From Cheilinus undulatus (taxonomy: Eukaryota; Chordata; Actinopteri; Labriformes; Labridae): DNA of 64,000 nucleotides. The notes beneath the pieces were generated by a model. It ran no database searches. It saw nothing but the letters and a program-made list of their open reading frames with translations, and was not told the DNA's origin. Of this stretch, positions 9,059-62,674 are shown piece after piece. Made by a program: the position numbers and the translations under genes. Position 1 is the first letter of the stretch. Each line of letters begins with the position of its first letter. The stretch covers positions 54,943,776 through 55,007,775 of the forward strand of contig NC_054867.1 in assembly GCF_018320785.1 (NCBI RefSeq), in the 5' to 3' direction.

Positions 9059-12000
9059 ATGAGTCTGAGCCGTTCAAAGAGAATCAGCTCCAGTAACTCG
9101 GTCCGGAGCAGCGGCGGATCCAGGAGGCTGAGTGGCTTTGGTCCGGTTCAGGGGGGTTTCAGCGGGATCTCTCTGAGCAGCAGCTCTCTGTATGCAGGTA
9201 CTAACGGCCATCACCATGGGCTGGCCGCCCCGCTGGCGTCCCTGTCCGTCAACAAGAGCCTGCTGGCCCCCCTCAACCTGGAGATAGACCCCAACCTGTC
9301 CATGAGCCGGGCCCACGAGAAGGAGCAGATCAAGAGCCTCAACAACCGCTTCGCCAGCTTCATCGACAAGGTAAACCACCTTCAGGTGATCTCAAAGATT
9401 AACACGAAACTACTCTGATAAATGTCTGAGTGTACAGTTAACGCTTTACTTTGGCATCCAGTGAGTCGGCCATTAATGTGTCATTAATGTTTGTTGATCT
9501 GATGAATATATTCGTCCACTATTCTCTCCTGTTTTAGCTCCGTGTTTGGTCTCCTCCACCTCCTGTCTCACTAGCTCCTAAATGCTCCACCTTATTCTAA
9601 AAAGCAGCATCTAAAGCTGCTGTAGAGAAGAGCTTAGCCTCCTGTTGCTCACACTCATATAACCGGGAAAATATTTGTGCGTTTGTTTAACACAGCTGAG
9701 TATCTAAGCACAAACTCCATCATGGTGCTGGTAGCTGCAGAATCTGAATGAACGCCCTGTCAGCTCTTTAAAATGATTCTTTTTCTTTTAATGCTTTTTA
9801 ATGCTGAGGTAACTATTATGATGCAGATTTTAAAAAAGAGCTTTAATCAGGGTTTTCTGTTTCACAGCAGGCACATATCTTTAATAGTTCTATTTCCAGT
9901 ACTAGATCAATAAGGTCAAAGGTCAAAGGTTTGTAGGATAAGCCATCACATAGACTCATCTTCTTAGTGATTAAACTTGCATTTTCAAATCCGCCTCACC
10001 TCCAGTCTATTTGCAGATTGCATTAGTTTAGCAAGCTACCATGTTGTAAGCAAGATTCATGGGCGTGGGGGGGGGGGCTGATTAGTAGGGAGGGGCCCTT
10101 GAGAAGCTTGCAATTTAAAAAAAAATGTTTTTTTCTTAGTAGTTAGTGTCATTAAGGAATATAAATAAAATGAAATAAAAACAATAAAATTCTTTAATTA
10201 AAAGAAATCAAAAACAAGTTTCAAATTTTTTTACAACTCAACTTTATTTGTATAGCACATTTCATACAGGTGTGAACTCAATGTGCTTTACAGAGATTAC
10301 AAACAGAAAAGCTATCAACTATTCAAGCAAATTGGGCAACACCCCGTAGACGGTACGTGGTGTGGTATGTTTTGTGTTGGTCTGGACATCCTACATACAG
10401 TCCTCAACAAATGTATCAGACCACCTGTCATATCTGTCTCAGAGACCATCCAGCATCATGAAGTGCTTTAATGCAGACTCTTTCATTTTCAGTCAGCTCT
10501 CCACGTTTTACCATTTTGAACAGGAATGAGGGATTTCAAACTGAATTCACCCAAATGTGAGCCGGCTCACTGGGCTTCTCTGAGATGTCAGAAATGAATC
10601 AAGCATAACATTCAACCACTAAAACTCATTTTTCTGTTCAGGAATGACAGTAAATAACTATAATTTGACATATTAATCAAGAAATAATAACCTGCTTTAC
10701 TATTTTTTACGTTTTTTTGTAAATCAGTAAATTTAAAAATTCATGGATAACAATAATAATTCTATTTTAGCATTAAGAATATCATTTGGGTTAAAGAGCT
10801 TCTACATATTGGTGTATTAACCATTGCAGAAACATAAAAATGATTTTGGTAATTACCAATGCTGTTAATTTAGGGCAGCTGTGGCATAAAGCTTACTTTG
10901 GTGGTGGTCTAATAAATTTAAGCACTGTACCACACATCATATATTGCCGGAAAACACAGATTCTCAGCTCTCTGTCCGTGCCCCCACGGTTTCCGGTGGT
11001 ACTGCTCCGTTTGGCTCGTATCCGTAAGCTTTATGGAAACGTGCAGAAATACGGACGAAATGAATGCAGAGCACAGACAGAAGGCTCCGTCCGTATCTGG
11101 ATTCGTATTTAACGTTGAGCTTAAATGGGCCTTTATGGTAATAATACTCCGGACATATAAAACACAGCGCCGGGTCAGTGGGTAAAGGGTTAATTAATCT
11201 TGTTAGTTTTCTTAGACATTGAATCAGAAATAATCAGACCAAGCTCCCATTCAAAAAAAACCTTCAAGGTCTTCATAGTAGAGATGGATTAGAGCTGCAC
11301 CTCTGGGCTCTGGTTCCTCAGACTGCATGAATTAAAGGTTCAGTGGATGGTCTGCTCTGTCCATACTTCCACATATTCTCATTCTGCAAAGTTGTTTTAG
11401 CTCAACTTCCTTTGAAAGGATGCTGAAGTAACTTTTATATAGGGGGCATTGAGTGAACCAGAGGGCCGAATGTGGCCCCCGGGCCGCCAGTTGCCCACCC
11501 GATGGTCAGGTCTCTGTTTTTATCAAATGTTTAGGCAAACTCACACCAGATCAACTGTTCCACCTACACATAACACGGGAATCAACCTGGTCAACACCCC
11601 GTAGATGGTATGTGGTGTGGTATGTTTTGTGTTTGTCTGGACATCCTACATATATGTACTAACTTTTATGCGTCTAGCTCAAACTCTGTTGTTGTAGACA
11701 TGAAGGATGTTTGTGACAGACATGCACAAGAATACATGCTTTTACAGCTGGATCCAAGTATCTGCGAATTTTGTTGAGTTTTCAGGCTTGTTGATTCCTC
11801 TAAATTAGTGAGTAATTTGTCAGAACAATGATAAAAGAAGAGGAATTCCTTCAGTTTTACTCTGGTCCTCTCTCCTAGGTCTGAGCTCAGGCCCTCACCA
11901 TGGACAAACCCTTAAAGGGTAGTGAAGTATTAGAGAAGTACATGTTTACATGTGGAAGTGAATCTGATTGGTAGCGTGTTGATATTCCGGTTCTCTCATT

Positions 12001-15000: not shown

Positions 15001-18000
15001 GATATTTTAGCTCTTTGTCCCACTTTGCTCCGCTGAGTTTGGTTGTAACCTGATAAGGCGGGTCAGACACAGCGTGGTCCAGTCTCTCAGGTAGATTATT
15101 CTGTTTGAACAGAAGACAGGCTTTGTGTTCAGAGGTGGAGGGATGAAAGGTAGAGGATAGATTCACCCGCTGCAGGCCGGTAACACGAGAGGAGTACATC
15201 TAGCCCAGAGTAGACTTTCACATCCAGCTGATTATCTGCAGGAATGACAAGGTTACAGTAACCTCCTATCATCCATGCACGGACATCCTTATACGTCCAT
15301 GCATGAATATTTTTATACGTCCATGCATGGACATTTTTATATGTCCATGCATGGACATTTTTATACATCCATACACTGGCCTCCATATACAGTCATGGAC
15401 TTAAGTATTGGCACCCCTGGAATTTTTCCAGAAAATACACCATTTCTCCCAGAAATTGTTGCAATCACAAATGCTTTTGGTATACTCATGTTTATATCCT
15501 TTATGTGCATTGGAACAACACAAAAAACCTGAAAAAAGCCAAAATTGACATAATTTTACACAAAACTCAAAAAATTATTGGCACCCTCAACTTAATATCT
15601 GGTTTCACACCCTCAGAAAAAAATAACTGAAACCAATCTCTGCCTATAACCATCAACAAGCTTCTTACTCCTCTCAGCTGGAATTTTGGACCACTCTTCT
15701 TTTGCAAACTGCTCCAGGTCTCTCAGATTTGAAGGGTGCTTCTTCAACAGCAGTTTTGAGATCTCTCCATAGGTGTTCAATGGGATTTAGATCTGGACTC
15801 ATTGCTGGCCACTTCAGAACTCTCCAGCTTTGTCTCCAACCATTTCTTGGTGCTTTTTGAGGTATGTTTGGGGTCATTGTCCTGCTGGAACATCCATGAC
15901 CTCTGACCCAGACCCAGCTTTCTGACACTAGGCCCTACATTGTGGCCCAAAACTCCAGACTCCAGTCTGGCTTTTTTATGTCTCTTTGTCAGCAGTGGGG
16001 TTCTCCTCAGTCTCCTGCCATAGCGCTTCATCTCATTCAGATGACCACGTATGGTCCCAGCTGACACTTTTGCACCTTGAGTCTGCAGGACAGCCTGAAT
16101 TTGTGTGGAAGTTGACTGAGGATGTTTATCCACCATTCCAACTATCCTGTGTTGCATTCTTTTGTCAGTTTTTCTCTTCTGTCCACGTCCAGGGAGATTA
16201 GCCACAGCTCCATGGTTATAAACTTCTTGATTATATTACACACAGTGGACAAAGGATTTCAGGATCTCTGGAGATGGTCTTTAACCTTGAGATTGTTCAT
16301 ATTTTCCACAATTTTGCTTCTTAAGTCCTCAGACAATTCTGGGCTCTTCTTTCTCTCCTCCATGCTTGGTGTGACACACACAGACACACAACACAAATGC
16401 TGAGTCAACTTTTAGACATTCTAACTGGCTTCAGGTGTGATTTCTAGATTGCCAGCACCTGTTACTGCCACAGGTGAGTTTAAATGAGCATCACAGGCTG
16501 GAAATAAAATGATTTACCCACAGTTTTAAAAGGGGGACAAAAATTTTGTCCGGCCTATTTTTTGAGTTTTGTGTAAAATTATGTCAGTTTTGTCTTTTTT
16601 CTTCCGATTTTTTGTGTTGTTCCAGTGCACATAAAGGAAATAAACACATGTATACCAAAAACATTTGTAATTGCAACAATTTCTGGGAGAAATGGTGTAT
16701 TTTCTGGAAAAAATCAAGGGGTGCCAATACTTTCGTCCATGACTGTACATAAAATAAAGCAAAATCAAATAAAGAGACTTGCACGCACTTGTGCAACCGC
16801 AAACATTTGATCATGCACCAGACCTGACACCATCAAGAATCTGCCTTCATTCATCATTTATTGAAGCTGATGCTTAATGGTTTACTGTGGTACACAATGA
16901 TGCAGGCAAGGCTGGATTTCATAACCTCGACCATCCCTCTGTCCTTCTCCATGACCGACCACTGAACCTGTCACTGTCCAGCCAGTAGGTCTAACTTTGT
17001 AAATATCTCTCTGTATGCCATTTTTTTTTACATCTTCTTCTTCTTCATCCTGTTTTTTCTGCAGGTGCGTTATCTTGAGCAGCAGAATAAGATGCTTGAG
17101 ACCAAGTACGAGCTGCTGCAGGGTCAGGGCGTGGGCCGCTCCAACGTGGAGCCACTGTTTGAAGCCTACATGGCAGGCCTGCGGCGTCAGATGGACCTGG
17201 TCAACAACGACAAGATTAAACTGGACGGAGAGCTGAGGAACATGCAGGGGCTGGTGGAGGACTACAAACACAAGTGAGTACATGACTCACCATGATTTAT
17301 AGAAAGAATGACGGGAACAATGGTAGCTGGAACCATCGTGATAGGAGGACGATGAATTTTGATTTGAATTTCTTCAGAATTTAATATCCATGCATGTAGA
17401 TCACAATGGCAACAGAAATAGAAGCTGCAAACAACAGTGGTCAATTTTTTATTACCAAAAATAACAAAATGGAAGAAAAAAGTTGTGCTGTTCAAGATCA
17501 GCAACATTTCCTTATGCATGCTGTCTTACTTCCTCAAAAACTTTGGATATGTTTCCTCCTAAACGTCAACTAAAATGCACACATACACTATATTGCCAAA
17601 AGTATTGACTCACCCATCCAAATAATGTAAATCAGGTGTTCCAATCACTTCCATGTCCACAGGTGTATAAAATCATCACCTAGGCATGCAGACTGTTTCT
17701 ACAAACATTAGTGAAAGAATGGCTCGCTCTCAGGAGCTCAGTGAATTCCAGCGTGGTACTGTGATAGGATTCAGTCCAGTGGTGAAATTTCCTGGCTCCT
17801 TGTCATTCCTGCAGATAATCAGCTGGATGTGACAGTCAACTGTCAGTGGTATTATAACAAAGTGGAAGCCATTGGGAACGACAGCAACCCAGCCACCAAG
17901 TGGTAGGCCACGTAAAATGACGGAGTGGGGTCAGCAGATGCTGAGGTCATAGTGCGAAGAGACCGCCAACTTCCTGCAGAGTCAATGGCTACAGACCTCC

Positions 18001-21000
18001 AAACTTCATGTGGCCTTCAGATTAGCTCAAGAACAGTGGTAGAGAGCTTCATGGAATGGGTTTCCATGGTAACAGCTGCATCCAAGCCATACATCACCAA
18101 GTGCAATGCAAAGCATCGTCACTGGACTCTAGAGCAGTGGAGACGCCTTCTCTGGAGTGACCAATCGCGCTTCTCCATCTGGCAATCTGATGGACCAGTC
18201 TGGGTTTGGTGGTTACCAGGAGAACGGTTCTTGTCTGACTGCATTGTGCCAAGTGTAAAGTTTTGTGGAGGGGGGATTATGGTGTGGGCTTGTTCTTCAG
18301 GGGCTGGGCTTGGCCCCTTAGTTCCAGTCAAAGGAACTCTGAATGCTTCAGCATACCAAGAGATTTTGGACAATTCCATGCTCCCAACTTTGTGGGAACA
18401 GTTTGGGGATGGCCCCTTCCTGTTCCAACATGACTGTGCACCAGAGCACAAAGCAAGGTCCATAAAGACATGGAGGAGAGAGTTTGGTGTGGATCAACTT
18501 GACTGGCCTGCACAGAGTCCTGACCTCAACCCCATAGAACACCTTTGGGATGAATTAGAGCAGAGACTGAGAGCCAGGCCTTCTGGTCCAACATCAGTGT
18601 GTGACCTCACAAATGTGCTTCTGGAAGAATGGTCAAAAATTCCCATAAACACACTCCTAAACCTTGTGGAAAGCCTTCCCAGAAGAGTTGAAGCTGTTAT
18701 AGCTGCAAAAGGTGGACCCACGTCATATTAAACCCTATGGATTAAGAATGGGATGTCACTGAAGTTCATATGCTAGTCAAGGCGGGTGAGTGAATACTTT
18801 TGGCAATATGGTGTATATTGGCAACAGTTCCATGTGGAATTGGAAATTAAACCCTGAATTCTGTCTATACCGCACACAAATATTGGCAACACTTCTACCC
18901 AGAATTCACAAAAAACTTTACATGCTTTCTATGTTTTTTTAAATTCACAGGTAAAACTCCAGCTCCCTGAGTTTATTACACACAAGCACTGGAAACATTT
19001 CCTCATGAACTCTTTCTTAGTTGCACTCAGATATTATCAACAGTTCTTCATGGAAATGTTGCCTGTTTTCTGATGGTTTAGGTCAGTTTGATCAGGTTTC
19101 TGGTGGTTCATTCCTCTCTCGCCTGTTTGCTGACACAGACGTGCTTTATTAAATGTTTTCGTACTTTTTCAGGCTATTGACCATTAAAATAATGGACTGA
19201 AGTGTTTTAAAACCCAAGTTATCTAAAACTGCCACAGAATTATAGAACAGAGGGGGGATTTGATCACTGAACAAACTTTCCCACTTAAAAATAGACATCT
19301 CATAAATCATTTTGTAGTTTTGATTTATAACAGGAAGTCATGAAAAAATGAACAGAAATTCAGCTTTTTGAATTGTCGCATCATCTCTGATGCCTTATAG
19401 CAGTGGTTCTCCACCTTGGAGTCGGGATCCCCTTCAGGGGCACGAGACACTTAGAGGGGGTCTCCAGATGCCCTAAAAAGCTAATAATATTCTTTTTAAT
19501 TGCACTGTTGCCACTTGACACCAGTTTTGTCAAATTTTAACCCCTTTTCATTTTTTCCCCACCAATTTAAACACATTTTTTGCCATTTAACAACAATTTT
19601 TGTCAGTTTTGAACTCAGCCCACCACTTTTCTGCCTGTTCTTGCCACTTAAGCTTAAACCCCTTAACGCCTGTTGTCGCATATTTGATACATACTTTTAA
19701 ACTGCCTCTATCTCATCAGTATGCTCAATTAATTACTCAAAAAAACTTTTGAATACAATCTGAAAAATGATAAAAATGCTCTCAAGTGGATTATCATTTA
19801 CCAAAAACACCTAATGAATGAGATGAGATTCTAAAAATAAATTTGTGAAATTTTATGTAAATCTGGATTTTTTCAAAAATTTCAGTAGAAAGTTAGATGA
19901 ACATTTCAGTTCCAAAAAATGAGAATTTTCTGGCCATTATTTGTGTTTTCAGGCTTTAAGGGGTTAATGTTGCCTCTGTTGACCCATTATTGCCACTTTT
20001 AACCTCTTTTTACCACTTTTTATGTCGTTTTTTAACCCCATTTCATTTGCCCATTTCTGCTAGTTTAACTAATTTCTTCCAATATAAGCCTATTTTTAAT
20101 TTTTTTCAGTTAACCCTTTTTGCCAGGTTTCTAGCTATTTTTCATCTCATTTCACCAAATTTCCACCCAATTTGCCAATTTAAAGCCATTTCAGCATTTT
20201 AACTCCCTTTTACCTCTATCTATGCCCATTTCTGTATCTTTAACCCATTTTTGCCATCTTTTTATGCTATTTTTGTCTCATTTTTGGCACTTCTAACCCA
20301 TTTCAGCTACTTTTAAAATCCTTTTCCACCATTTTTGGCCATAATTAACCCACTGTAGCCATTTTAAAACCAATTTAAATTCTTTGTTTTTTAACAAAGG
20401 GGTTTACATTTTTAAGAAGGCTATTTAATACACGAATGACTAAAAAAAGATATTTGTTTCTTTGATAAGAGTGGTTATTATTTAGGTTAGATATAAAATA
20501 TAGATATCACAGCTTAACTTTACACTAGACCATGGTTTTGTTGACTTCCATGAGCCCCCAGTTTGGCCAGCCCCAGAAAGCTCTCCCCTTTATCCCCCTA
20601 ATGAGCGGCCTTGTCTCCACATGACTGTTCCTGAATGTTCATGGCTGTTCAGCCACCTTCAGGTTCAGTGGGGGTCCCCGGTCTCTGCCACCTTTATTCT
20701 GGGGGTCACGGGCTGAAAAGGTTGAAAACCCCCGCTTTATAAGACATAAAAAATGTTTTTTCTCATGTAGGTACGAGGACGAGATCAACAAGAGGAACAA
20801 CCTGGAGAACGACTTTGTCATCCTGAAGAAGGTCAGTGCTCTCACATTCATACCCACGGGTGTGGCGAGTAAAACGAACCGCGGTATTATCTCCTTCCTT
20901 TGTCCTCGTTGTCTCCATGCTCTAGATTCCCACATTATCCAAACACCATGAATGCATCGGCCGCTTCACTTTGAAATGTTTTCAAAAAATAGACAACGTA

Positions 21001-27404: not shown

Positions 27405-27705
27405 GTCTACAGCACCGACAGTGACGTCAGGGACCAAAAGGCTGGCAGCACGAGCGCTGAAGGGGGTTGGGCGGACACTGGGCGGACAGCGCTCGAGAAC
27501 GACTCCCCCCTCTCCTCTGATTGGTCGCTGACCTGCAGTTTTCCCGCCAACGCGCTGCATTGTGGGGCTCGTGAGCGGAAGTGCTCCGGTCGTGGGGAGG
27601 CTGTTGTTGTTGTTCGGATGCGGTCGCGGGGGGCGTCGAGTTCTATTTTCCAGAAATTTCACCGGTAGAGGGGTCGTTACCGGGCGTTACCGGGAGAGTT
27701 TACCG
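27405..27705 (+). promoter_or_regulatory. rbl1: rbl1 promoter and 5' UTR, CpG-rich, with CRE, CCAAT and E2F motifs
   Basis: A GC-rich stretch without a TATA box. Visible motifs are a palindromic CRE TGACGTCA at 27422-27429, an inverted CCAAT (ATTGG) at 27520-27524 and a consensus E2F site TTTCCCGCC at 27540-27548. Mammalian RBL1 is known to be an E2F target, so the motif set suggests cell-cycle feedback by E2F/pocket complexes. The transcription start is not determined and probably lies in about 27550-27600. Confidence 0.75.
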
Positions 27706-30700
27706 ATGAGGGGTGAGGAGTCTTCGGATTCAGAGTCCGGGAGGATGGAGGAGAGCTCGGTCCGGAGGAGTTTGGAGAGTCTGTGTCAGGAGCTGAACAT
27801 GGACGGAGAGACGGCGGAGGAAGCCATGGACAACTTTAGCACGATCTGTAACACCTATACTTTAGAGGTATTTATCAATATAATCAATATTATTAACTAG
27901 TATTAGTTATAGGCGGTGGACACAACTTTAGAAAGATTTAAAACACCTATACTTTAGAGGTATTTATCAATATAATCAATATTATTAACTAGTATTAGTT
28001 ATAGACAGTGGACACAACTTTAGAAAGATTTAAAACACCTATACTTTAGAGGTATTTATCAATATAATCAATATTATTAACTAGTATTAGTTATAGACAG
28101 TGGACACAACTTTAGAAAGATTTAAAACACCTATACTTTAGTGGTATTTATCAATATTTGTAACTATTATTTTGTTTTTGAGTCATAAGCAAATATCTAT
28201 TTCTTTTTTAGAAATAACACAATAAATTAAAAGAGAATACATTGGTTTAAATTACATTGTGTTTTTATCTCTGAAAATTTGTGAACTATGATTTTTTTTT
28301 TTATCTTTGAATGTTTTATGTATACTGATGGACCTAGGGGTCTGAACAAAAAATCTAAAGAAAGTAAAGCAATAGAACACTAGTATGAAACATCCCACCT
28401 TCTATGGGCTAGGACCAGATGTTGTCTGACAGTTTTTGCTGCATGCTTGTTCTCTGATTCATCAAGATTTATTCACTCTGATTACAGATTTATTCTGTAG
28501 CAGCTCTTAGTTATCTGACATGTCAGGACATGATAAAAGATCCTCCTTTCAGCCCGGAAACAGACCTGACAGCCCTGCATGATTACATTATCGTCATCCT
28601 TTTATAGTGATCGTCATGATCAGGATCCCCATCATGATTATCTTCGTCTTAAGTATGGATCAGAGGACGTTTAAAGCCTTCATCATCATGACTTCCTCAG
28701 TAAAGGACATGTATGGTTGTGGCAGCAGGGATATTCTGTTTAAATGGTCCTTAAGGCTGTTTAGGTCTTAGATTTTCCATCAGCTGTTGTTGACTTGAGT
28801 CTGGTTTATCCATCTTCACTGAATCCAGGTCATAGCCAGGTTGTAGTATCCTACGCCGTCACTGAGCACTGCATTCTTGTGTGTCCACGTTGTTCTGCTG
28901 CGCCCAAACCCAACACAACAGTGTGGTCTTTGTACCAGTTCTGGTTCCTTCACCATATTTTCTTCTTATTTGTGTCCAGAAACCCAATGTGACCAGAACC
29001 AAGGGTATTGTGTTGGAGTTTTAGCTGATTCCTATTATAAGCTGTAGGAATGCATATATATTCTAGGCATGACATCAATAAGCACAGATAAAAGATTAAA
29101 GTTGAATATCAGTATATGATATGAAGATTTTGCACCATATCTTAGTCTTGAATATTGGTGGTTTGTGTATTAAGATGATCTTTAATGTTTATCTTGTGTT
29201 TTTGTGTCTGTACAGGGAGAGGTTGTGCATTGGCTGGCCTGCTCTCTTTATGCAGCCTGCAGAAAAGGATCCACTCCCACTGTGGGTAAAGGCTTCATGG
29301 AAGGAAACTGCGTCTCCCTCACTAGGATCCTCCGCACCTCCAAACTGAGGTCAGTCACCATCAACTCTGCAGCACTCAATGTTGTCTAGACCTTAAAAAA
29401 CAAAACTATAGGAAGAAAGATGTCCGTTAAGATGTTATATTTATATTTAAATTCATGTCTCCTCGTCCTTCAGTCTGATCCAGTTCTTCTCGAAGATGAG
29501 GAAATGGGCCGACATGTCCAACCTCTCTCAGGACTTCAGGCTGCGGATGGAGCGGCTTGAGCGGAACTTTGAGGTCTCCACCGTCATTTTCCGAAAGTTT
29601 GAGCCCATCTTCATGGACATGTTTCAGAACCCGCAGGGGGGCGAGCCGCCACGTCAACCACGCAGCAGGAAACACAGGTACGACACGCCATTTGCCATTT
29701 CCTTTAAGAGCTGTTTGTTCAGTCAGACACCAGGAAGTAATGCCACTTTAGTCCAACCAGTGACAACCCAAAATCAGAACACACTGTTCCTCCTCTGATT
29801 CTAACAACAACCCATACATCGTTTCGGTGGCCCTCTTACCGTAGCTTGCTGATAGGAATGAATGTGGGCCAATAAGCCACCAGCTAAGCGGCTAGCGGTG
29901 GCTCTTTAACAGTTTTTCTCCCTGAACACGAAAGGACATGCAAATATACTGTTTAGTAAATAAACTTTGTGGGGTACTGGTTAGACTGGTCTGCATGCAA
30001 AGGGCACGGACAGAATGTTTTATAAGCTGTGTTGGCATCATCTTCAAAGGCAAGGATGGAATGTTTTATAAGCTGTGTTGGCATCATCTTCAAAGGCAAG
30101 GATGGAATGTTTTATAAGCTGTGTTGGCATCATCTTCAAAGGCAAGGACAGAATGTTTTTTAAGCTGTGTTGGCATCATCTTCAAAGGCAAGGATGGAAT
30201 GTTTTATAAGCTGTGTTGGCATCATCTTCAAAGGCAAGGATGGAATGTTTTATAAGCTGTGTTGGCATCATCTTCAAAGGCAAGGATGGAATGTTTTATA
30301 AGCTGTGTTGGCATCATCTTCAAAGGCAAGGATGGAATGTTTTCAAGGTTTTGACATCATTGTTCTATTAAAGGCTTTAAAGGATGACATCCTCAAAGGC
30401 AGGAGACAGAATGCTGGTGAAGTTTGGGGTTTTTTCCCTCCTTTTTTGCCAAATAGTAAAAGTAAATGTATGATTGAACCCAGGAAGAACAACAGATGCT
30501 TTTGCTATTGCTATTGGGGATCCTAATTAAGAAAGAAGGAAAGATGAAGAGTTTGGAGGAAGTCCTGACTTGTCATTAATTGATGAGACTGTTCTAAGAG
30601 GTGGCTCCGTTTTATGAATGACTGGACCCAGCTCTTGTTGGAGACGCTGTTTGCTTTTTTTCATTTTTGTTGTTGTTTTGAAGAAATAAAAAAAGCCAAA

Positions 30701-33700
30701 CTGGTATCACACGAAGAGCCATTGGAGGGTAGAAAGAACAGCTCCTCTTACTGAGCTGAGACAAATAATCCAGGTCTTTTAAAAGAGCCACAACTCCCAT
30801 CACCCTTGGTAAGGCTGAATGGACATAAATTAAGCCAAAGTGTTTTGTTTACTGGCAGAATACAGCAGATCGTGTTGGTCATTGCCATCTTTAATGTGTT
30901 TGCGAGTCCAGTCCAGATGAAGACATCCCAGACCTCCTCTGTATCTGAGCTATCAGATATCAAACAGTTTTCAGTACACTTTAAGCTGTGTTCACACACA
31001 GCATTGAGGATTACCGCTTGGTATCTGGATGCCCAAAGCAATGTTAATGTAAGTTATAAACAGTCTTATTAACGGGTCTGACCATGTCTGTATCCTCTCC
31101 TTGGTTCTGCAGGCGTCTGCCGTGTCACATCAGTGATGTGTTCAAGTTCTGCTGGACTCTGTTTGTCTACACCAAAGGTAAAACAACCACCATCATCACA
31201 CTGAGGCCAAATAACAGCTGTATTACACATACTAAGGTGTCTGCTGCTGATTTCTAACTTTTTAAGCCATTTTATAAAGCCAGAAGTTTGTTCAAGGAGT
31301 TAGATTTGTCTGATTTACAACTAATGACCTTATTTAGAGTAATGTTTTAAAAAATATTAGTTACTATTGCATATACAGTAGATTGGCAGATATTTAACAA
31401 TCAAGCAGAATGAAATTTAAATATGATAGTGCGTCTTTTATTAAAATGAGCAAAACCATCATCAGGCAGAGTTGACGGAATATCTGACGGAGTTGACAAA
31501 TGTCTGACGGAGTTGACAAATGTCTGACGGAGTTGACAAACGTCTGACGGAGTTGACAGACATCTGACGGAGTTGACAGACATCTGACGGAGTTGACAGA
31601 CATCTGACGGAGTTGACAAACGTCTGACGGAGTTGACAAACGTCTGACGGAGTTGACAAACGTCTGACGGAGTTGACAAACGTCTGACTGAGCTGACAAA
31701 CGTCTGACGGAGTTGACAAATGTCTGACGGAGTTGACAAATGTCTGACGGAGTTGACAAATGTCTGACGGAGTTGACAAATGTCTGACGGAGTTGACAAA
31801 CGTCTGACGGAGTTGACAAACGTCTGACGGAGTTGACAAATGTCTGACGGAGTTGACAAATGTCTGACTGAGCTGACAAACGTCTGACGGAGTTGACAAA
31901 CTTCTAACTAAACGGGGCTGTGATTTCAATTCCAAATGTCTCCTGTCTCTTTAACCACGTATCTGTGCAGCCTGGGCCCATTTTATCCTCTGAGCCGTTG
32001 TTAGATGCAAGGAGGTAGCAGGAAGAGGGAAGTTTTTGGCGCTTCCAAAATTAGAAAAAAAATAAACATGTATTGTCATCAATTTACTGTTGAAACTGTT
32101 GGGATGCAGATTACCTGAGTGACATCAGCAGTTTTTATTTATTTAATCTTTATTTTACCGGGTCCCCATTGAGAACAATGATCTCTTTTTCAAGAGAGAC
32201 CGATAAACTGTCTGTTGAAGTGTTTTTTTTTTGTTTGTTTGTTTTTCAGGAAACTTCCGTATGATTGGAGATGACCTGGTGAACTCGTACCACCTGCTGC
32301 TCTGCTGTCTGGACCTGGTGTTTGGGAACGCTCTGCTGTGTTCCAACAGAAAGGAGCTCATCAACCCCACCTTCAGAGGTCTGTGCATGCCTGGTATATC
32401 GTTTTAAAAGAAGTACTCAATTAACTATTTCCTCACTCCTCATGTTTGAGTGAATTTTCTCTTTGGGACTGTTAACTAGTGTTTAATCAGACCGTACAGT
32501 GGATCTCTAACAGCACCTGATTGTTAAATTTATGATAAAAGGAGAGCAAATACTTACCCTGTACCACAAGACTGTTGTGTAAATTTGCTGCTTGAACACA
32601 ATCTACAAACATTCAGAGGTCTTGACATACATCATAGTCATATAAAGATGCACTGATTTGAGTTCTATCATCAACTCTAATTCCAGATTTTTCCTGGTTT
32701 GTCCTGCCAACACTGGTTGTCTTTCTTTAAAAAGAATAATTGATGACAGACAACATAGTTATAATATATGATTACTGAATATGTTTGTTTGCAGGTCTCC
32801 CTCCTTTGTACCGTGCTGACGGCCATGTTTCAGCAGACAAGCCTCCTCCGTGTGTGTTGGAGCGTCTGTGTGAGCTTCATGATGGACTGGTGGTTGAAGC
32901 CAAGGGCATCAAGCAGCACTACTTCAAACCGTACATCCAGAAACTCTTTCACAGACAGGTAAGCATGCCTAAAAACACATAAAGAGCTGTATTTATTCAC
33001 TCAGGGACATGTCGTGTATTTCTATTAACTTGACTCTCTTTTTTTTAATTTCTTCATTACACTGACCTTATTTAACTAAGAAGAGGATTTTTTTCTCTGT
33101 GTCCAATTATTTTTTTGTCCAAATTCTGTCTTTGATCTCAAAATACTGACTTTGATCTGAAAATTCTGTATTTGATGTAGAACTTTTACATTGATCTCAG
33201 TTTTCTGATTTAATCTTAAAATTCTAACTTTGATCTCAAAATTCTGAATTCGATCTCAAAATTCTGTCTTTGATCTTAAAATTCTGACTCTGATCTCAGA
33301 GTTCTTTGATCTCTGAACACTGACTGATCTCAGAATTCTGACTTTGATCTCAGAATTCTGACTTTGATCTCAGAATTCTTCCCTCAGAATTCTGACTGCG
33401 ATCTAGAATTACTGACTTTAATCTCAAAGTTTAGACTTTGATCTGAAAATTCTGTATTTGATGTAGAATTTTCACATTGATCTCAAAGTTCTTTAATCTC
33501 AGAATACTGACTGATTTCAGAATTCTAACTTTGATCTCAAAATTCTGACTTTTTTTTTTTTTTTTTTTTTTTAAGATTTATTTTTGGCCTTTTTGCCTTT
33601 ATTGGATAGGACAGTGGATAGAGTCGGAAACAGGGAAGAGAGCGGGGAGAGACATGCAGGAAATAGTTCCACGGGCTGGATTCAGACCTGGGTCGCCTGC

Positions 33701-36700
33701 GTATATGGCGCGCGCTTTAACCACTTGACTACCGGTTCACCAAAATTCTGACTTGACTCAAAATTCTGACTCTGATCTCAAAGTTCTTTGATCTCAGAAC
33801 ACTGATGGAACTCAGAATTCTAACTTTGATCTCAGAATTCTTAGAATTCTTAGAATTCTTACCTTGATCTAGAATTATGACTTTGATCTCAGAAATCTGA
33901 CTTTGATTTTAAAATTCTGATTTTGGTCTCAGAATAAATACTTTATTCCAGAATTTGAAGAGAAAATCCTCTAAAAATAATCTGGCATTTCACAGGTTCT
34001 AATCCTCTTTCTTAGTCTAGAGACACAAACATTTACTTCTCTTTATACCTTCATGCTGGCTATCAGACCTGGAGGCATAATGTTGTTAGATTGTCTATCT
34101 GGGTGTACATCCATACAAACATCAGAATGTTTATCGTATTTTGCCACGCAGAATCCGTTCTCGCTTTCTCTTTTCCTTCAGTGCCTTTTTGTTTTAGGAG
34201 CAAAAACAAAATCCCCAATTTTATACAGAAATAGTCTCAAACAGAAAAGTTAATCATATGCCTTCTACATAAGGAATCTTCCTACCTCTTTTTAGGGCAA
34301 ATATCATACCTTAAGTTTTTGACCTTTGTAAATTCAGGTTTGTCCTTTTTTTCCCTTCAATCAGATCCTGAAAGGCAATGAAGACAATCTGACAGAACTG
34401 CTGGATCCTCAGAACTTCATCGACAACAAGTAAGCCAATCAGAGTCAAGAACCCTGTCATCTTTTTGTGCACAGTTGTCAGTTTTTTTCCTTTGCCTTCT
34501 TCATGTGTTTTAAGTACATCTTACGAAGTTGAAATGCCCGGCATTAGTGGTACCTGTATAGAAACAGCGTTCCATCCGGGACATTATGGACACCAAGAGA
34601 TCCCTGGTTCTCCCCCTCACTTTGATTTGCTCGCCTTTAATTGCCCCACATGAATGATGAATTTTTCCAACTCAAGCAAATGTCATGCTTCTATTACATT
34701 TTTTCTATATATAAATAGTTAACAAAGGTGGACCTAAAACTGAACCTGGCTGTACACCAAAGGAAATACAAGAGATGGAAGATGAGTTACCCATGGTGAC
34801 TGCAAAGGTTCTGTCTAAAAACCAAATAGGTGCAGTGATCCTGACACCAATCCAGGCCTGGTGATGTTCTATGAAAATGGCATGATCCACTGTGTCACAT
34901 GAGCTAAATACCCCTGTCAGCAGACAAAAAGGGCTTGTTTGTTTCTTTGAGAAGGGTGGCTTGTATCTATTCTTGTCTTTGTTATATCTGAGGGGGTCAT
35001 TTCTGAGCACTCTACAAATGTACCGCTGTGTTAAAGTTATGTTTTTGGTGCATATGTTTGCAGTAAAGCCATAAACCGAGAGTACGAGGAGTATGTGCTG
35101 ACAGTGGGAGATTTTGACGAGCGGGTGTTTCTGGGAGCCGATGCTGATGAGGAAATCGGGACTCCGAGGAAGATCGTTCAAGAGCCGTCGGCAAGCCTGA
35201 CGAACACGCATAACTCTCTGCAACAGCATGTGGAGAAGGTACGCAGCCACGGATCCACCTAGAACAGCTTTGACATGAGATAAAGTTATGTTTATGGTTC
35301 AAGGAGTATTAATCTCCTCTCTCTCCTCCAGTCGGGCTCTCTTGCCCCCTCCACCCCTCTAACAGGTCGAGTCTACCTCAAAGAGAAGGACCTCCTCGTC
35401 ACACCGGTCTCTTCGGCGACACAGAGCGTCAGTCGTCTGCAGAGCATGGTGGCCGGGCTGAGGACGGCACCCAGCGAAAACCTGATGCAGATCTTCAAGT
35501 CAGTGCCTCTGCTTATGTCTGACTCAGTAGATTTTATTTTATTTTAGCTCAAAGATTAATTTTCTGAGAGTTATAATGTTGATACTGGTGAATATATCAT
35601 CAACACTTTCAGCCAGGGTTTTAATTCTGTTGTTTGTTAAAGGTCGTGCTCCAGAGATCCCACCGACTCCATCCTGAGCAGGGTGAAGACTCTTGGACAA
35701 ACATTTAAAGAACATTACACCAACGACTCTGAGGACATGCCTGGCTCCCATATAGGTACTAAACTTTTTATACAACACATTAACATCTGATTGGATATTC
35801 AGATACCAAGTAGCAATCTTTAAAGCTGTATGTACTGGAAGAAGTCCACATACAAAGGGGTTCTGGGATGTCCTTATCCAGACTGGATTGGTTGTATAGC
35901 TGCAACAAGTTCTGGTAAACATTAAAGATGGCCCCGACTGATATGATCTGTGGTGTTTTGTAAACAAAAGAATGGCTTTATGGTCATCCAACCTTGCTCA
36001 GAGTGAAGGGATTGTGGCTCTTTTCAGAGATCTTTCAACTCCCAAACAGCTCTTCTTTAAGTTCCAGTTTGGCTTTTTATCTCCTTAAAAGAACAAAAAT
36101 GGAAACAAAGGAAACTGTCCTTCAAATAGGAGCTGGCTCCCATCAATCAGAAAACAGAGCCAGCTCTTAGAACAGTGGCATATCATAATTCTCTCCTAAC
36201 TGCTCATCTTAATTGAGCAGTCATATGTCTTTAAAACAACAACAAAAAGTAACTAAAGGAAGCCGCCTCTAGAATGGAAGCTGGCGCCAATCGTTCAAAA
36301 GAAGGAGCCAGCTCTTAAAACTGAATGACTCAGCATAGCTCAGTCTCATTCACATATATACCAACAAGCTTTCCCTTAATTGATTGATTGTCCTATGTGT
36401 CCAACTTTGGCCTATTTAACAACAATAGAGAGAAAAGGCCCCCAACATCCCCAGCTTCACCAACATTCCATCCTCTGCATTTGATGATGGCATCTGTTGT
36501 AGTCTTAAATGGCTTGAGAAAGATGATGTCATTCTCTGAAGTTTATACAACATTGCCTTTAAAGGTGATGTCATTAAAGCGTATAAATCATTTCATCCTT
36601 GCCTTTGAAGATGATGTCATCATTTGAAGCTTATAAAACATTGTGTCCTCTGCTTTTATGTCATCCTTAAAAGCCTTTAACAGGTTTTAGAAAGATGATG

Positions 36701-52591: not shown

Positions 52592-55500
52592 ATGGGAGTT
52601 TATTATGGGATGTTGGTTCTGGTGGGCGTGGCCTCACTTCTGACCTCTGTCCAATGTGACGTGAGCTGCAGAGGAACTGACGGACACGTAGGAGTTAACG
52701 GAGCCCCAGGCAGAAATGGATTACCTGGAGCGAAGGGAGAGAAAGGAGAGCCAGGTAAGCACTTTCTAAACACACAGACATGAATGTTGTTCGCCCCCTA
52801 GTGGACAAAAATATTACTCACCAGATATTTTCCTCCCAGCTGCGATGGTGGAAGGATTAGATCCGGACAACCTCCTTAGGTTGAAGGGGGAGGCTGGGAG
52901 TCAAGGTCCGCAAGGTCCTACAGGTCCTAAAGGTTACCGTGGAGTTCTGGGAGAAGCTGGTCGCCCAGGAAACCCTGGTCGTCCCGGGCCAAACGGAAGA
53001 AACATTGGCCAAGGTAAAGAGTCAACTTTTCAGACTACATACAGTATATCATGCGTAACTCGCTTATAAAATAAATATTTATTATTTATTTGACCACAGG
53101 AAAAGGAACTTGTTATTGGTTGAAAAGGAAATAAGGGAAACTCCTGACTGAATCTATTAATGCCATCAGCTATTTAGTTTATACCTACATGACTGAAACC
53201 AAGACAGAAACCCTCGTTCCAGACGCCTCCCTGATCAGACGTCTGTTCTGATGAATGACTCATTATTTAGTATGTAAAGTAAATAAACAGCATAGTTTCT
53301 GTCTGTTCTCTTTTAGGGGGACGACGCCTCCAGCAGCAGACGCATTCAGCTTTCTCAGTGAAGAGGACAGAAAGAACATATCCTCCCTACAACCAGGTTC
53401 AGTTTAACTCTCTCTGAATCCTGACATACACCATTTATCCATCCAAACATCCTTCCATCCATCCAAACATCCATCCATCCATCCAAACATTTATCCATCC
53501 ATTCATCCATCCATCCAAACATCCATCCATCCATCCAAACATTTATCCATCCATTCATCCATCCAAACATCCATCCATCCATCCATCCAAACATCCATCC
53601 ATCCATTCATCCATCCATCCATCTATTATCCATCCATCATACATCCATCCATTATACATCCTTCCATCTATTATCTATCCATTCATCCATTCATGTATTC
53701 ATCCATCCATCAATCCATCATCCATCCATCCATCCATCTGAACATCCATATAAGCATCCATCACCCATAATCCATCCAAACATCCATCCATCCATCATCC
53801 ATCCATCCATCAGAAGGTATAAAAGTGCACAGTAAAGTGAGACTTTATGACTGAGTAAAACTGCAGGTTACCTTTGTTTAAAAATCTACTAATCTAATCG
53901 TGGTTTACGTTGATGTTTTAGATTGTCAACCAGTGGACCACCGTGGTCAATAATCCCGGGGACTTTGACACAACCACGGGTCAGTTCACATGCAGAATAC
54001 CTGGAGTTTACTACTTCAACTTCCACTCTACTGCAAAGGTAACACAGCTCTTTTTTCACTCTATTATATGATCATCAAACCTGTTTTTTTTTTTTTTAGA
54101 AATGAATACACTGTATAAGTTTAGATTTTGGAATGTGTTGTATGTCTGAGTTACTTTAAGGTTTCAGTTTCATCAGATAAATGTCCATTTATTGGTGGTC
54201 TGGCACAAGATAAAACAAAATTTATAATTTTGCTGATGAATCATCACATACATGAGTTTACATCATAACTGTAACTTCATTATTGTCCTTTATGTGTCTT
54301 TTAGGCCAGCATCTGTCTGAATATTGTCAGTCAGGCTCTGCCAAACAAGCTGGGATTCTGTGATTACAACAAGAACCAGGATCAGGTCAGTGCTGAGGGT
54401 TAAAGAGTCTGAAGATTCATTCACATTCTCTCTGGTTACCTCCAGAAACAAGACAAATCAACAAGAAGAGGATGCATCCACTGAGATTTATACAGCTATT
54501 GTTCTGCCAGATAAACTTCTGCTCGTCATCATCTTGTTTGTTTTAGTTCAGATATATTTTATGGCTTTCTGCCGTTATTTCATGTACAGTGACAGGAATA
54601 GATTCAGAACATGTGGAGAGAGAGTGGGAATGACATGCAGGAAAGGAGTCACAGGTCAGATTTGACCCGGCTTTAAGGTCAAAAGATCCTGTAGGTAACC
54701 AGTAAAGCACAGTTGTTCAGGTTTTTTTCCTGATAACTTTATTCCCGGTGAGGCCGGCTGCAGTTGGTAGAGAGAACAGCTGTTTGGTCCCTCTCAGCTT
54801 CCTCAGACCTGGAAATTTTTTTTCCTGAGACCTGACACCTCTTTTTCCTGATGCCAGTTATTCATGAGATCTGACACCTTTTTTCCTGAGACCTGACACC
54901 TTTTTTCCTGACACCCCTTTCTGAGACCTTTTTTCCTGACACCTACTATTCCTAAGACCTGTCACCTTTTTTCCTGACGCCAATTATTCCTGAGATCTGA
55001 CACTTTTTTTCCTGAGACCTGACACCTTTTTTCCTGACACCCTTTCCTGAGACCTGACACCTCTTTTTCCTGATGCCTTTTTTCCTGACACCTACTATTC
55101 CTAAGACCTGTCACCTTTTTTTCCTGACGCCAATTATTCCTGAGACCTGACACCTTTTTTCTTGATGCCTATTATTCCTGAGATCTGACAGCTTTTTTCT
55201 CACGACCTGACGGCTTTTTCATGTGACACCTTACTCCTTACTCTTTACCTGCGGGTGTTCTAAAATGTACACTGTACACAGGTCAGATTTGAACCTGGGA
55301 CACTCTGGGTCATGGGGTGCATCATAACTGCTTGGTCATGTGTTTGTGTAAAGTTAGGAGAAAATCCTCCAGAGTAACGGCTCTAGCTATCACCAACTTA
55401 ATCAGCTGCCATAGTAGCAGTTCTGTTTGAGAGAGCAGAAACAGAAGTTTAGCGCCATCTTTTATTGGGTGTGTAGAAAAAGAGAGAGGCCTTGGCTGCT

Positions 55501-59360: not shown

Positions 59361-61030
59361 TATATAAACTCAGCACATAAAGTAAGGAAATGCGTTTGGT
59401 ACATTATTTCTTTGTTGTAACAATGGTTCTTGGTAATAAATCTTATACCGTTGGAAAGCCTGTTTATTACCCTTTTAAATGATGACACATTTGTAAGGAT
59501 CATGCATTTGTGGGATGAGCAGCAGAGCTTAGTATGTGGATTTCAGTCCATGAAAAATTTGCCAAATGTTCTCGGCCAAATGCCAAACAGCTGATTCTGC
59601 CATTGACTCTTGTTGACTCTTGAAGTTTGAAGAAACAAGACATATTGGCGTTTAACAGTTAATTCATTTAACAAACAGGAGCCTCAGTAGTGTGTGGAAG
59701 CACCATACACAGCCACAACAGCCTGGCTCCTCCTCCTCATGCTGGTCACCAGCCTGGTCACACACTGCTGTGGAATTGCATCCCATTCTTCCACCAGCAT
59801 TAATCTCCAGTAAGCCAATGTGGTTGTGTTGGTCACTCTGGCACGAACAGCACGCCCAAGCTGATCCCACAAGAGTTCAATGGGGTTGAGGTCAGGACTG
59901 CTGGCAAGACATTCCATCCTCTCCATTCCCAAATTCTGGAGGTAGTCTCTGATAAACCCCGCTCTGTGGAGGCGAGTGTTGTCATCTTGGAGGATAGAGT
60001 TCAGTCCCAGACTGTGGAGATATGGGATTGCCACTGGTTGCAGAATCTCATCTTGATATCTCTCTGCATTGAGATTTCCTCCAGTGATGATAAGCCTTGT
60101 TTTTACAGTGAGGAAGATGCCACCCCACACCGTCACACTGCCTCCACCTAAAGATGTTACTCTATCGGTGCAGCAATCAGCGTAGCGTTCCAACTGCTGT
60201 AGGCAGAATCTTGACTCATCGCTGAACAGAACGTTCCCCCACATGTTCAGGTTCCAGTGCACGTGTTGCCGACACCAGCGCAAACGGGCCTGATGGCAAA
60301 GGGCAGTCACGGTAGGCCTCCTGGCAGCCCTATGAGACCGGAGATTGGCTGAGTGTGGTCTGTTCCGGATTGTCTTGGCAGAGAGCTGTCGGCCACATCG
60401 TCCTGCGAACCTTGACTGCAAATCTGTAGAAGACAGCCTATGGTACCCAAGTGCTGACAGAGTGAGGAAACAGTCTTCTTGGGGTGTTGTCTTCTTGGGA
60501 CACCCACTTCCCGGCCTGTCTCTGACATTCCCCGTTATATGGAACTTGGCCTTCAGTTTGGAGATGGTACCAGGGTTCACTCCAAACAATGTCTCAACTT
60601 GGTTTTGTGGAACACCAGCTTGAAGTTGCCCTACCGACGGGCCCTATCCAGATCAGTCAAACATGCCATTTCATGGATGCAGACATCTACTGACCACTGT
60701 AGCAGGTCCCATGCTCACAGGTGCGGCCAATCGGGCACCTGATTGGCCGCACCTGGGGGTACCAGAAGCTCAAAACAAGAGTCAATAGCAACAGCAAATT
60801 AAGCTGTTTGGCACTGGCAGAGAAGATTTGGCACATTTTTCATGGACGCAACCCACATGCTAAGCTCAGCTGCTCATCCCACAAATGCATGTTCCTTACA
60901 AATGTGGCATCAATTAAAAGGGTAATAAACAGGCTTTCCAACAGTGTAAGATTTATTACCAAGAAGCATTGTTACGACAAAGAAATAATGTACCAACACA
61001 AATTTTCTTAGATTTTGTGCTGAGTTTATA
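59361..61030 (-). mobile_element. Tc1-like transposon with ~230-bp inverted repeats
   Basis: Left arm from ATATAAACTCAGCAC and right arm ending GTGCTGAGTTTATATG match in inverted orientation over about 230 bp (TGGTACATTATTTCTTTGT and GGAAAGCCTGTTTATTACCC words). It encloses a nearly complete transposase and is directly followed by another Tc1 element at 61047. Confidence 0.9.
59684..60680 (-). pseudogene. Tc1 transposase, near-intact, one N-terminal frameshift
   Basis: The minus-strand frame from 60589 to 59684 is open for 301 aa: HTH region (VNPGTISKLKAKF), catalytic Asp in VLFSDESRF, Asp in ILQDDN and Glu in [14 protein letters not shown] with 34 residues between the last two (DD34E), ending YGASTHY. 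The upstream start near 60667 (MACLTDLDRARR) is separated by a single small indel at about 60630, after which the frame reads GQLQAGVPQNQVETLFGV. Otherwise the length matches a full Tc1 transposase, so this is the least damaged transposase in the window. Confidence 0.85.
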
Positions 61031-61046
61031 TGTATATATGTATATA

Positions 61047-62674
<1,628 letters not shown>

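Follow-up and report, generated by a model that had tools for sequence, protein, structure and literature searches.

A 92-bp tandem array repeats the exon 1 splice donor of a retinoblastoma-family gene, presumably rbl1, within intron 1 in Cheilinus undulatus

Introduction

Tandem duplication of AGGT-bearing segments is accepted as one way in which introns are gained, and is reported for ATP2A1 and other cases (PMC3443670, PMC4974935). Fission yeast has arrays built from a 24-bp unit that contains AGGT, and an intron runs across four or two of the copies (PMC4974935). The same paper describes an 83-bp tandem duplication within intron 1 of the potato RdRp gene that left the exon-intron structure unchanged (PMC4974935). 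Break repair is able to make small tandem duplications (PMC8355091).

In this study, we describe a 92-bp tandem array that crosses the boundary between exon 1 and intron 1 in a gene of the retinoblastoma family of Cheilinus undulatus. As in the reported cases of intron gain by tandem duplication (ATP2A1 and others), an AG|GT site has been copied, with AGAGGT present in copies 1–3 and donor- and acceptor-like signals standing one unit apart. Unlike those cases as there described, the duplication took in an exon-intron boundary that was already there and left the additional copies within that boundary's own intron. The array resembles the fission-yeast arrays in holding several AGGT-bearing copies, whereas the yeast copies are presented as exonic and as having made a new intron, and the unit studied here spans an old boundary. 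With the potato RdRp duplication, as summarised in its source, it shares a similar length and a position in intron 1, but it includes exon sequence and the donor and amounts to 3.6 copies. Break repair could plausibly have given rise to a small duplication, although a 92-bp array needs later expansion too.

The locus also consists of head-to-tail copies of a single unit in the 10–100 bp range that defines minisatellites (period 92, 3.6 copies). For comparison, hTERT VNTR2-2nd reportedly lies in an intron. It is described as a minisatellite (PMC2915984), and like such intronic minisatellites the present array is a short tandem array within a gene, possibly variable in length; unlike hTERT VNTR2-2nd, it reaches into a coding exon and includes the donor of that exon. 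Among the literature titles and abstract openings searched, none mentioned a tandem array in which an rbl1 donor is copied, which is no proof of absence.

Like these cases, the array represents a commonplace type of event, though its position is awkward. Our main reading, to which we assign a probability of about 0.72, is that an accidental tandem duplication spanning the boundary was later multiplied, that the downstream donors act as decoys, and that functional mRNA is made through the donor at 27867. With three donors identical over their 9-nt core and spaced 92 nt apart in intron 1 of a cell-cycle gene, the locus constitutes a natural competing-donor construct, and junction counts at the array would reveal how position decides between identical donors.

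Gene Context

The window, by which we mean the whole 64,000-nucleotide stretch analysed, contains a retinoblastoma-family gene with an N-terminal domain and the RB_A and RB_B pocket domains. Three stretches were submitted to domain searches. Exons 1–3 joined encode 167 residues, and the Pfam domain DUF3452 matched residues 82–166, i.e., exons 2–3 (E 3.6e-27); exon 1 was covered only by a TFIIB-repeat match under the cut-off (residues 18–81, E 0.0023). The two later stretches matched RB_A (E 3.6e-18) and RB_B (E 1.6e-26). Comparison of exons 1–3 with the PDB returned no p107 relative, the one hit being a chance-level match to a collar protein (E 0.68). The preliminary description labelled the gene rbl1, which suits human p107; we adopt this label, presuming p107 rather than p130, and assume a likeness of exon 1 to human p107.

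Exon, donor, stop-codon and repeat-copy coordinates refer to the + strand. The coding part of exon 1 occupies 27706–27867; its translation starts at the first ATG, spans 54 codons and closes with ...NTYTLE. Exon 2 (29216–29349) follows the intron 1 acceptor (TGTACAG), and intron 1 was taken as 27868–29215. The boundaries of the exons were set by eye.

An E2F-like site, TTTCCCGC, is located upstream of exon 1 at 27540–27547; E2F is known to target promoters of the retinoblastoma family.

Geometry of the Array

The tandem repeat at 27830–28157 was confirmed as real and far beyond chance. Tandem Repeats Finder reported a 92-bp period with 3.6 copies, 96% matches and a score of 600, and a repeat finder returned three 144-nt copies that are in register and spaced 92 apart. 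The preliminary description had recognised the array but had set its edges at 27851 and 28145 and its start 17 nt inside exon 1; the actual start is 38 nt inside.

Copy 1 (27830–27921, 92 bp) joins 38 nt from the end of exon 1 to 54 nt from the beginning of intron 1. Copy 2 (27922–28013, 92 bp) is intronic and carries a decoy donor after 27959, and copy 3 (28014–28105), also intronic, is identical to copy 2 over 92 bp and carries a decoy donor after 28051. The partial copy 4 (28106–28157, 52 bp) has one mismatch and a changed decoy donor, GTG|GTATTT, after 28143, and clear similarity ends with it. The sequence TTTAGAGGTATTT starts at 27861, 27953 and 28045, and TTTAGTGGTATTT starts at 28137, in agreement with the earlier claim of two identical and one near-identical copies downstream of the real donor.

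Local similarity of 28158–28300 to the unit was no better than that of randomised sequence (P 0.72), leaving a fading complete fourth copy past 28157 unsupported; the repeat finder listed a 22-nt stretch at 28150–28171 with 86% identity, 9 nt out of register. At the unit junctions, likeness to the exon sequence left of 27830 was weak (P 0.05 at the first junction and 0.38 at each of the other two) and was therefore not relied upon.

Reading Frames and Products of the Downstream Donors

The authentic donor of intron 1, GAG|GTATTT with its intronic bases at 27868–27873, is the only one of the four copies that joins the acceptor at 29215 in frame. Exact repeats of this donor follow at 27959 and 28051, and a changed version, GTG|GTATTT, is found at 28143. 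Splicing at these three sites adds 92, 184 and 276 nt, respectively. Since the stop sits in the first unit, the divisibility of 276 by three is of no help: if splicing at 27867 is missed, translation meets a first in-frame TAG at 27898–27900 in every case, giving a 64-residue product. The prediction that downstream donors would add multiples of 92 nt and reach an in-frame TAG was accordingly borne out, with one TAG common to all three, although the codon had been placed near 27896 and its exact position is 27898–27900.

Early stops upstream of exon junctions generally mark RNA for nonsense-mediated decay. By this general rule, RNAs spliced at the downstream donors should mainly be decay targets. 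The expected outcome had been called a truncated p107; the early stop is there, but the result is better read as a 64-residue product whose RNA is a probable target of nonsense-mediated decay. With decoy-spliced RNA mostly decayed, any decoy use would lower p107 output.

Donor Strength and Choice

The splice-site matrices and the list of enhancer words used here are approximate. With the vertebrate donor matrix, the sites at 27867, 27959 and 28051 each scored 5.15 and the site at 28143 scored 3.05; the equal scores follow from the 9-nt sequence that the donors at 27959 and 28051 share with the real one. The authentic donor was the fourth lowest of the 15 assigned in the gene by this matrix, the median of the other 14 being 7.82, in an exon set that is incomplete and whose low-scoring donors at 35502 and 46160 may be misassigned. 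By computed pairing with U1 (−5.9 kcal/mol), five of the 15 were weaker. When 94 GT sites of 27700–29199, exon ends included, were ranked by score, the identical donors took places 3–5 and that of copy 4 place 12.

The best donor-like score in 27700–29199 belongs to GGG|GTGAGG at 27712, which lies within exon 1 shortly past the first ATG (7.94 vs. 5.15 for the authentic donor).

The probability that the 9-nt site is open was calculated in three windows. For donors 1–4, it was 0.050, 0.062, 0.051 and 0.0056 with an 80-nt window, 0.0077, 0.0077, 0.0022 and 0.0047 with a 150-nt window, and 0.0060, 0.0057, 0.0015 and 0.0035 with a 240-nt window. By folding, donors 1 and 2 are thus indistinguishable and donor 3 is equal or somewhat lower. 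Concealment of decoys 2 and 3 by RNA structure was unsupported, their open probabilities in the 80-nt window being like that of donor 1. The array as a whole folded no better than shuffled sequence (z-score 0.01; 48 of 100 shuffles folded at least as well), with no indication of a built device.

Sequence context differed among the copies. Five purine-rich enhancer-like words occur in the 80 nt preceding donor 1 and none before each of the other three, which favours donor 1. Downstream T content is 0.50 for copy 4 vs. 0.40 for the other three donors, and this T-rich sequence could help the donor of copy 4. When identical donors compete in classical in vitro experiments, the downstream one is often favoured, so donor 1 is not certain to dominate. 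Passages of PMC8724738 held nothing on the winner among several identical donors, and a term search of PMC3629103 gave 0 occurrences. Sequence alone leaves the choice of donor unsettled, and we infer the dominance of donor 1 mainly from the need for p107.

The same measurements bear on whether the downstream donors might serve as a physiological switch to decay that tunes the level of p107, i.e., regulated unproductive splicing. Donors 2 and 3 that score as highly as the real one, a single early stop common to all outcomes, and a real donor that is weakish both by score and by U1 pairing would suit such a switch. However, copies 2 and 3 appear to have been recently multiplied rather than individually selected, and the RNA structure does not rise above that of shuffles; we consider regulation of this kind unlikely. 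Under the reading of an accidental duplication, the downstream donors would be mere decoys and the array is most likely non-adaptive.

Copy Differences and Origin

Between the exon copy and copies 2 and 3, 7 of 92 sites are different, five of them in columns 11–20 and the others in columns 84 and 86; throughout columns 21–83 the exon copy equals copies 2 and 3. The five clustered differences fall in a 10-bp block (27840–27849 in the exon), which reads CACGATCTGT in the exon and AAAGATTTAA in the intronic copies. The intronic version yields a TAA in the exon frame (AGA AAG ATT TAA), and the exon copy is open. Under random placement, such clustering has a probability of 0.0037 (five of seven within 10 bp) or 0.0078 (five of five within 38 columns), both values having been calculated post hoc for a cluster already noticed.

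These differences also bear on the reliability of the assembly. The identity of copies 2 and 3 is what a wrong copy number or a false duplication might produce, whereas copies 1 and 4 differ both from copies 2–3 and from each other, so that no fewer than three distinct units are present. The assembly is moreover long-range (46 contigs for 1.17 Gb), and we regard an artefact as quite improbable.

The near-identity of the units noted earlier is not uniform: copies 2 and 3 are identical over their 92 bp, and the exon copy differs from them at the 7 sites given above. The same division applies to the proposed recent expansion: identity supports it for copies 2 and 3 only, and the exon copy carries the cluster of differences, so the original duplication may be older.

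When the 92-bp unit was searched against its own 1.17-Gb assembly, all four matches lay inside the array, at this locus only, with a tool that limits scoring to the best candidates and passes over very common words. A dispersed repeat or transposon was thereby left unsupported, and in this respect the array is unlike a dispersed satellite. The same tool found at least 150 matches on 13 contigs, some overlapping, for a 46-bp array of 7.5 copies in intron 3 (29998–30343; a longer query of 346 bases); 40 of 610 candidates were scored, and 150 is a lower bound. The tool is therefore able to find dispersed arrays. The intron 3 family is dispersed through the genome, with several matches within ~1 Mb of the start or end of a contig.

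Local tandem duplication is the natural reading of the 92-bp array, and it is how we read it. A short duplication across the exon 1/intron 1 boundary would have placed a second splice donor in the intron, and the unit would then have been multiplied to 3.6 copies by slippage or unequal exchange. The first, exonic donor at 27867 would serve for functional mRNA as the sole frame-keeping donor of the four, and decoy use would lead, by way of the 64-residue product, mostly to nonsense-mediated decay. The pattern of differences suggests that an older duplication was followed by homogenisation of its right part, including the donor, and then by a recent duplication giving copies 2 and 3; we read the array as having probably been both expanded and in part homogenised since the first duplication. 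The array ends mid-unit at 28157, which fits poorly with a single clean 92-bp duplication and calls for inserted filler or an extra step.

Unit Removal and Exchange Within the Array

Each unit opens with a donor GT and closes with an AG before the next GT, and removal of a whole unit would regenerate GAG|GT. A 92-nt unit might accordingly be a removable intron, a second splicing step restoring the normal exon 1 after use of a downstream donor. The acceptor TTTAG|AGGT, at 4.84, does score above the weakest of the 12 assigned acceptors of the gene (3.96), but this TTTAG lies two bases upstream (rank 13–14), so that its use adds 2 nt and shifts the frame. The exact AG|GT acceptor reaches only 3.40, rank 26–27 of 85 intron AGs by the approximate matrix, and several AGs intervene after the branch-like TATTAAC. 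On these figures such self-correction is highly improbable. A recursive splice site, in which a strong acceptor meets a donor directly around a zero-length exon, finds no counterpart here, the AG|GT being as weak as just given.

For the loss of a single unit by exchange between copies 1 and 2, we enumerated 93 exchange points, weighted equally; gains and conversions fall outside this count. At 73 of the 93, exon 1 and its donor are left unchanged, and the remaining 20 give the TAA. Shrinkage of the array is therefore predicted to be harmless for the most part. Next to exon 1, however, lies a near-copy of its end that carries a stop, and exchange with it could make null alleles, the intronic copies acting as their local source. 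Combining the two ideas, the repeat could be self-tolerating, with retained units removed in a second splice and losses mostly harmless, and would then act both as a splicing buffer and as an in-cis source of recurrent null alleles; we give this combination very little credence.

Least probable is that the copied donors recruit U1 as decoys shielding the transcript from premature polyadenylation at 28221–28231, where AATAAA (28221) and ATTAAA (28226) overlap ~80 nt beyond the last donor copy, because AT-rich introns are expected to contain hexamers of this kind (there is a third at 29095) and the authentic donor is already less than 400 nt away.

Other Features of the Window

Shortly past the array, TTTCTTTTTTAG at 28211 has an acceptor score of 10.53, above the 8.40 of the real intron 1 acceptor at 29215 (approximate matrix). 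A 20-bp array of 21 copies with 95% matches is present at 31483–31905 in the same gene as the 92-bp array.

Elsewhere in the window, a 271-aa open frame at 17916–18728 matched the DDE_3 transposase domain (E 7.2e-11), and frames resembling this one by eye were seen near 15674–16235, 59684–60643 and 61228–62162. The upstream neighbour gene gave keratin type II head and filament matches at 9062–9391, both under the curated cut-off. The downstream neighbour gene encodes a collagen-repeat protein (52592–52783).
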